Assembly (NCBI RefSeq): GCF_004354915.1 | Contig: NZ_SMSI01000001.1 | Coordinates: forward strand, 558,001-622,000 | Reading direction: 5' to 3' | DNA: 64,000 bases | Source: Pseudohoeflea suaedae | Lineage (GTDB): Bacteria; Pseudomonadota; Alphaproteobacteria; Rhizobiales; Rhizobiaceae | Shown: in pieces, positions 43,662 to 44,497 of the stretch | Numbering within the stretch: position 1 is the first letter of the stretch | Layout: every line of letters starts with the position of its first letter | Position numbers and translations under genes: made by a program | The notes under the pieces: generated by a model | Database searches by the model: none | What the model saw: only the letters and a program-made list of their open reading frames with translations | What the model was told of the DNA's origin: nothing

Positions 43662-43922
43662 TTAGTGGATGCTGACGGTCTTCAGCTCGTCTTCGGCGGC
43701 GCGATAGAACGTGCTCGACTTGTCGTCGGTTAGAAGGATCGGTGTGCCATCTGCCCCGAACAGCGCCCAGAGCTGCATGCCCGGATCGAGCTGCGGTGCG
43801 GAGGGGAAGCGCTTGTTGACCTCATCCGACGTCATTTCGCGGATGTAGCCGACTTCGCCTTCACCGAGAGCGGCGAGCTCCGTTGTTGTCACGGACGGGG
43901 ATTTAACGGTTCTTGCAAACAT
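43662..43922 (-). CDS. DUF1150 family protein
   Basis: An 86-residue small cytoplasmic protein of the alphaproteobacterial family DUF1150. Recognisable stretches are ALGEGEVGYIREMTSDEVN, LWALFGADGTPILLTDD and a terminal KTVSIH. The function is unknown. It regularly accompanies an Hsp20 gene, and here follows it by 53 bp on the same strand, so co-transcription under heat shock is likely. The start MFARTVKSPS is set by AAGGAGG 8 nt upstream; that site lies inside a self-complementary CCTCCAAGGAGG. Confidence 0.88.
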   Translation of the reverse strand: MFARTVKSPSVTTTELAALGEGEVGYIREMTSDEVNKRFPSAPQLDPGMQLWALFGADGTPILLTDDKSSTFYRAAEDELKTVSIH

Positions 43923-43975: not shown

Positions 43976-44407
43976 TTAATCTCCGACGGAAATGTTAATT
44001 TTTCTCACCATCCGCTCCGGTTCGGGACGAATGAGATCGACGGCAAGCAGGCCATTCTTCAGCTCCGCGCCTATCACCTGCATGCCGTCGGCAAGCACGA
44101 AAGTGCGCTGGAACTGGCGTGCGGCAATGCCGCGATAGAGATATTCGCGGCCCTCGGGTTCACCCTGGCGGCCACGGATGATGAGCTGGTTTTCTTCGGT
44201 GGTCACGTCGAGATCGCTCTCGGTGAAGCCGGCGACTGCGAGGGTGATTCTCAGCCGCTCCGCCGGGTCGCCATCCGAATTGGCGCGAATTCGCTCGATA
44301 TTGTAGGGCGGGTAGCCCTCCGAGCCCTTGGCGATGCGCTCAAGGGATTTTTCGATCGTGTCGAAGCCCAGAAGCAGCGGACTTGAAAACGGGGTCATGC
44401 GGGTCAT
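43976..44407 (-). CDS. Small heat shock protein, Hsp20 family
   Basis: A 143-residue alpha-crystallin-type holdase of the IbpA class, binding unfolded proteins during stress. The alpha-crystallin domain runs from about residue 35 (PPYNIERI) to 130, with ITLAVAGFTESDLDVTTEENQLIIRG and RQFQRTFVLADGMQVIGAELKNGLLAVDL; a short tail ends KINISVGD. The start MTRMTPFSS has AGAGGAC upstream. The promoter and a two-hairpin leader upstream match sigma-32 plus ROSE-type control, so expression should rise with temperature at both transcription and translation. DUF1150 follows. Confidence 0.95.
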   Translation of the reverse strand: MTRMTPFSSPLLLGFDTIEKSLERIAKGSEGYPPYNIERIRANSDGDPAERLRITLAVAGFTESDLDVTTEENQLIIRGRQGEPEGREYLYRGIAARQFQRTFVLADGMQVIGAELKNGLLAVDLIRPEPERMVRKINISVGD

Positions 44408-44411
44408 GGTC

Positions 44412-44460
44412 TGTCCTCTTTCAAGCGACATTCATATCCGGACCCGTATCGGCGTCCGGA
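44412..44460 (-). promoter_or_regulatory. ROSE-like RNA thermometer in the Hsp20 leader
   Basis: Hairpin I (44460-44437) pairs TCCGGAC with GTCCGGA and, after one bulged G, CCG with CGG around an ATA loop. Hairpin II (44430-44412) pairs TGTC with GACA and CT with AG, with a bulged G and a six-base loop, and its 3' arm holds the Shine-Dalgarno AGGA. The opposite arm reads UCGCU, the U(U/C)GCU motif that defines ROSE elements of rhizobial small heat-shock genes, including the bulged G. Confidence 0.78.
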
Positions 44461-44468
44461 CAGGCTGA

Positions 44469-44497
44469 ATATGGGTGTGCGCAACCCCGGCTGCAAG
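44469..44497 (-). promoter_or_regulatory. Sigma-32 (RpoH) type promoter of the Hsp20 gene
   Basis: On the minus strand CTTGCA (44497-44492), 16 bp, then CCCATAT (44475-44469) matches the heat-shock consensus CTTGAA and CCCCATNT closely. Transcription would begin just before hairpin I of the leader. Confidence 0.72.

Follow-up and report, generated by a model that had tools for sequence, protein, structure and literature searches.

A conserved, compact ROSE-like leader in front of a chromosomal hsp20 gene of the Hyphomicrobiales

Across the Hyphomicrobiales and beyond, a chromosomal hsp20–DUF1150 operon has been retained together with a compact leader of the ROSE-like type, which we describe here for the locus in a 64,000-nt stretch of Pseudohoeflea suaedae DNA (the window). 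Comparison of orthologous leaders identifies the sequence in front of hsp20 as an old, strongly conserved RNA structure, and its motifs mark it as a compact two-hairpin ROSE-like element outside both Rfam families of this type. We consider it quite likely that the promoter and leader of this operon combine transcription by RpoH with a ROSE-like hairpin, hairpin II, that is opened by heat. From the sequence we infer the use of this sigma factor, the start site, the melting of the hairpin and the heat-dependent translation of hsp20, and likewise the double heat control, by RpoH at transcription and by hairpin melting, that the original prediction had put forward.

The hsp20 locus and its promoter

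The small heat-shock protein of 143 aa, an Hsp20 of the alpha-crystallin type, is encoded on the minus strand at 43976–44407 (Pfam HSP20, E 5e-17) and is followed on the same strand by a DUF1150 gene of the BQ00720 family at 43662–43922 (NCBIfam NF052376, 115.8 bits, above its cutoff). The hsp20 start codon is read from the minus strand as ATG at 44407–44405 and was placed there because the N terminus MTRMTPFSSPLLLGFD is conserved among orthologues. The orthologue family is present in 39 of the 41 related genomes searched, and orthologues were also obtained from 80 further genomes, a set of best matches that is hence biased towards close relatives. In all 80 of these loci a DUF1150 gene lies directly 3′ of hsp20, and the two genes probably share one operon. 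Most of the 80 have a nucleoside hydrolase gene (IunH) on the other side of hsp20; in the window, this gene is divergent from hsp20, while rpoN, hpf and ptsN lie beyond the DUF1150 gene. The closest named relatives belong to Hoeflea (Rhizobiaceae). An origin from a plasmid or phage was considered and rejected: close orthologues are chromosomal or located on megareplicons, and phage Hsp20s are less than 60% identical.

Upstream of the leader, CTTGCA-N16-CCCATAT can be read directly on the minus strand at 44497–44469, the −35 element being CTTGCA (44492–44497) and the −10 element CCCATAT (44469–44475). That this is a sigma-32 promoter had been proposed from the window alone, and the assignment has gained in strength, as the sequence matches the alphaproteobacterial RpoH pattern CTTGNN-N15-16-CCNATNT (taken from PMC4843759) and NCCATAT recurs at the fixed spacing in 61 of 65 non-redundant orthologue leaders. 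In S. meliloti, the RpoH1 promoter reads CTTGAA-N15-16-CCTATAT and the RpoH2 promoter CTTGCC-N15-16-CCTATCT (PMC4843759), so the putative −10 heptamer of the window is close to, yet not identical with, those of the two known RpoH classes. The −35 element varies among the 65 leaders (CTTGAA in 27, CTTGCG in 15, CTTGCA in nine). Across the orthologue leaders L001–L117, CTTGCA or CTTGCG is found in Rhizobium, Shinella and Hoeflea, and CTTGAA in Mesorhizobium, Brucella-type and some other leaders; this split may reflect an RpoH2- versus RpoH1-like preference. The genome that contains the window has an rpoH gene, with one match above the cutoff and others below it.

Structure and conservation of the leader

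About 55 nt of leader lie on the minus strand between the promoter and the ATG at 44407, and RNAfold predicts two hairpins within them. Hairpin I (44435–44462; UGUCCGGAC[G]CCG-AUA-CGGGUCCGGAUA), whose outer stem covaries, has nine pairs outside the bulged G44453 and three inside it, closed by an AUA loop; the upstream hairpin of the original prediction is thus retained, albeit with 12 pairs around a bulge in place of a plain 10-bp stem. Hairpin II (44412–44430; UGUC[G]CUU-GAAA-GAGGACA), the proposed thermosensor, came out of the fold just as predicted: the Shine-Dalgarno sequence AGGA (44417–44414), recognised by its sequence and its position 6 nt 5′ of the start codon, is paired opposite the ROSE-type anti-Shine-Dalgarno motif UCGCU (44428–44424), with G44426 bulged.

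The signature of hairpin II, UYGCU/AGGR (GU[C/U]GCU and then AGGR ahead of the start), is present in 105 of the 110 leaders of orthologues, a count that leaves out L030, where the pattern is present but lies 65 nt upstream, and in all 80 leaders of the best-match genomes. Four orthologue leaders (L016, L023, L025 and L028) are without a UYGCU/AGGA hairpin and appear to be losses or rearranged leaders. In the alignment of 65 non-redundant leaders, GU[C/U]GCU is found in every sequence with the bulged G invariant, AGG is invariant or nearly so, and the six modelled pairs of hairpin II are formed in 100% of cells. Covariation was detected in both hairpins. For the outer stem of hairpin I, the 65 leaders contain 101 double-change cells versus 40 in shuffles, and a set of 40 leaders contains 94 versus 28, with none of 500 shuffles reaching 94; in the latter set, 96% of cells are paired, as compared to 59–61% when the stem is slid one column out of register.

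A covariance model built from these 40 leaders, which omit that of the window and its close relatives L003, L039 and L040 but keep the more distant Hoeflea leader L068, recovers the leader from the window with 38.5 bits (E 7e-13; next match 9.7 bits) and ranks it first genome-wide (E 4.2e-11), although the E-values of these models are rough. With 29.9 bits, L236 is the second match of the held-out model in this genome; because it overlaps a reading frame, it was taken as a false positive. Under strict filters, at least 63 of 199 genomes of the order give a match. Outside the order, a leader-only model from the 65 leaders matches the leaders of Hsp20 orthologues in distant alphaproteobacteria (L130, L131 and L133); its match L132 lies within a coding region and is a false positive. 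Among readable orthologue leaders from across the class, YGCU precedes AGG in 22 of 25. The covariance model of the orthologue leaders offers a means to find further elements of this kind.

Two rival readings can be judged from these data. Taken by itself, the 72-nt fold (−26.1 kcal/mol) is just moderately better than dinucleotide shuffles (z −2.7; four of 200 shuffles as good), as would be expected if the hairpins had arisen by chance in GC-rich DNA; because the same layout recurs with covariation in so large a share of the orthologues, conservation extends across the order and the held-out model finds the leader, chance is refuted by the comparative data and can be virtually dismissed. Very improbable, too, is translation from the in-frame ATG at 44431, which would place hairpin II within the coding region and not in the leader: an in-frame ORF from 44431 does exist, but an in-frame start-like codon occupies this position in only seven of the 65 leaders and conservation of the Hsp20 protein begins at MTRMTPF, so that this upstream start was rejected.

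Relation to known ROSE elements

The leader shares the defining features of the ROSE class, namely a U(U/C)GCU motif imperfectly paired with the Shine-Dalgarno sequence in the 3′ hairpin (UCGCU/AGGA), a bulged G opposite the Shine-Dalgarno sequence (G44426), at least one stable 5′ hairpin (hairpin I, which covaries) and a position in the putative 5′ UTR of a small heat-shock gene (hsp20 at 43976–44407). Together with a significant, sub-threshold match to Rfam ROSE_3, these features bear out the identification as a ROSE-like leader. The earlier guess at a compact variant likewise agrees with what is known, since two-hairpin ROSE elements have been described for Pseudomonas ibpA (PMC3669281).

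Comparison with Rfam gave a divided answer. RF02523 (ROSE_3) matches the leader with 26.3 bits (E 0.0014 in 301 bases), which is significant but short of the gathering cutoff of 43 bits, and for this reason the leader is not filed in that family; RF00435 (ROSE) scores 16.6 bits against a cutoff of 45. At the gathering cutoffs, Rfam has no match in the window, and none of 20 orthologue or paralogue loci reaches any cutoff. A ROSE_3 search of the window's own genome yielded weak matches, the best one examined sitting in a coding region. Among comparison leaders positive in Rfam, two of the Pseudomonas-like ibpA type (L230 and L231) score 77 and 71 bits with ROSE_3, and two from Agrobacterium tumefaciens (L119 and L121) pass RF00435 with 61 and 65 bits.

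We assign the leader to a known type of ROSE element because there is a precedent in Pseudomonas ibpA, whose RpoH-controlled two-hairpin ROSE leaders have been studied by reporter, toeprint and probing experiments, including a deletion of the bulged G (PMC3669281). With this thermometer it has in common the two hairpins, a leader of about 60 nt, an RpoH-type promoter, the sHsp gene, UYGCU opposite AGGA with a bulged G, and a hairpin I with a GAUGCC/GGGUC core. It differs from Pseudomonas ibpA and ROSE_3 in belonging to another bacterial class, in its DUF1150 partner gene and in a shorter hairpin II (UCGCU, GAAA loop). The RF00435 leaders of rhizobial hspA and A. tumefaciens hspAT1 and hspAT2 have the same anti-Shine-Dalgarno core with a bulged G, and hairpin I of their consensus carries a bulged G as it does in the window, but they are longer and have more hairpins. 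More hairpins are also found in the E. coli ibpA and ibpB leaders, which share the sHsp gene and UCGCU opposite the Shine-Dalgarno sequence. Mesorhizobium class A sHsps (PMC3989490) and S. meliloti ibpA (PMC2873474) have also been noted to have ROSE elements.

Heat response, feedback and the bulged-G core

RNA polymerase with an RpoH-type sigma factor would start about 7 nt after CCCATAT, near 44462 and hence about where hairpin I begins, and in the transcribed leader hairpin I would be stable and hairpin II weak. In the cold, AGGA would be kept paired with UCGCU in hairpin II; as this hairpin is fragile owing to its bulged G and imperfect pairing, heat is proposed to open it, freeing AGGA for the ribosome. 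Hairpin I, which may help folding or bind a protein and which repeats the bulged-G core, is by analogy probably not the sensor: in Pseudomonas, hairpin I stays closed at 42 °C.

Folding across temperatures, the check suggested for this model, predicts both hairpins but only a slight opening of AGGA by 42 °C. In the isolated leader L001, the predicted mean unpaired probability of AGGA rises from 0.05 at 25 °C to 0.12 at 42 °C, and melting curves computed for the leader show no clear temperature response. Once 30 nt of coding sequence are included, an alternative fold with codons 8–11 is predicted that leaves AGGA half open at all temperatures, and with 60 nt this alternative is favoured at 25 °C by 2.0 kcal/mol over a fold in which hairpin II is enforced. 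The predicted helix (window 44370–44430, minus strand) joins CUUGAAAG of hairpin II to UUUUCAAG of codons 8–11 of hsp20 and is thus a competitor of hairpin II once coding sequence is part of the fold. All of these values come from nearest-neighbour energies, which leave out the noncanonical pairs of ROSE.

The weak predicted opening, and the report that A. tumefaciens hspC is not heat-inducible, mean that thermoregulation is not easily claimed. Both hspC mRNA and HspC-HA lacked heat induction in one study (PMC3504140), and the same was reported for hspC in another (PMC2885654). The A. tumefaciens leader L110 probably belongs to hspC and would thus stand before the orthologue of the window's hsp20, an assignment made by elimination among the four Hsp20 genes of that genome: two (L119 and L121) have Rfam ROSE leaders like hspAT1 and hspAT2, and L110 alone has the IunH-hsp20-DUF1150 layout. 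The probable hspC leader (L110, L111) possesses the promoter, both hairpins and UCGCU/AGGA. The element might accordingly be conserved in form in this lineage without conferring heat induction, expression being low and set by other signals. We regard this as improbable, given that hairpin II is invariant across the 65 leaders, which argues for function, that the orthology was assigned in a strain other than C58, and that hspC may be a poor proxy because its hairpin II is predicted to be about 3 kcal/mol more stable (−7.3 in the A. tumefaciens strain versus −4.4 in the window at 37 °C).

A different alternative starts from hairpin I, whose core Y[G]CY opposite RGG is conserved among orthologue leaders, even though hairpin I is dispensable for thermoregulation in Pseudomonas leaders (PMC3669281). 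The leader might mainly be a feedback element: Hsp20 oligomers, perhaps bound at hairpin I, would block translation of their own mRNA until they are drawn off by unfolded proteins, and temperature would act via aggregation instead of RNA melting. E. coli IbpA binds its own 5′ UTR and represses itself, which requires R93 and an aromatic residue at the position of Y34 (PMC10474464). Their equivalents in the window's Hsp20, R97 and Y32, are invariant in 17 orthologues, whereas E. coli IbpB, which does not self-repress, is without the arginine. Since Hsp20 keeps both residues that IbpA needs for leader binding, hairpin I may by analogy be an sHsp-binding site. That the leader acts mainly in this way is nevertheless unlikely, if not negligibly so: self-repression has been demonstrated only in gammaproteobacteria, and feedback leaves the retained ROSE core of hairpin II unexplained. 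Feedback and the preferred melting of hairpin II may also coexist.

The same core recurs in other ROSE leaders. When hairpins were sought without a preset motif, by the requirement of a single 5′ bulge and six or more outer pairs, 45 of the 65 leaders contained one, the bulged base being G in 48 of 54 cases, and the core Y[G]C occurred in 40 leaders versus a shuffle mean of 0.5 and a maximum of two. In the long leaders of paralogous Hsp20 genes, the bulged hairpin is present in 24 of 24, with two copies in 12. The observation on long ROSE leaders and on those of E. coli ibpA and ibpB was made on the leader of the second Hsp20 gene in the same genome (L031, G000:C15) as well as on L173–L192, L118, L119, L121 and L193. 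Folds of the E. coli ibpA and ibpB leaders contain upstream hairpins with C[G]CC/GGG. By these sequence comparisons, the sensing hairpin's bulged-G core returns in the 5′ hairpins of ROSE elements, both in long rhizobial leaders and in those of E. coli ibpA and ibpB. Published models contain the feature implicitly, as the bulge is also present in the Rfam consensus structures; in the papers searched, which did not extend to the original ROSE descriptions, we found no discussion of it. The role of the 5′ hairpins has been described as ‘not fully understood’ (PMC3669281), and the repeated core makes it directly testable by point mutation.

Finally, the held-out 40-leader model also matches, in this genome, the leader of dnaK (E 0.0025), which lies outside the window at G000:C1:357073-357132 (L237, L243; further dnaK leaders, L244–L272). 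In 29 of 30 genomes of Rhizobiaceae and related bacteria, dnaK is preceded by the arrangement AGGGGCUGYC-[GGAAYGCC..GGGUYCC]-GRCAGCYYGCU..AAGGAG or by a variant in which it can still be recognised; Rfam at its gathering cutoff has no family that matches these loci, and the dnaK leader is possibly an undescribed RNA element or switch. Its inner hairpin carries the bulged-G core Y[G]CC/GGG. It is conceivable, though improbable, that the bulged-G hairpin (Y[G]CY/RGG), which lies 5′ of the sensing hairpin in alphaproteobacterial and E. coli ROSE leaders and also occurs within Rhizobiaceae dnaK leaders, is a common sHsp recognition site; by binding there, one chaperone would then control both its own translation and that of DnaK, with hairpin II melted by heat. 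For dnaK, covariation does not support a local hairpin over the Shine-Dalgarno sequence. The outer long-range helix, which pairs AGG with YGCU and leaves a G bulged, is formed in 94% of cells and covaries, so that YYGCU is here paired with an upstream AGGG and not, as in the hsp20 leader, with the Shine-Dalgarno sequence.
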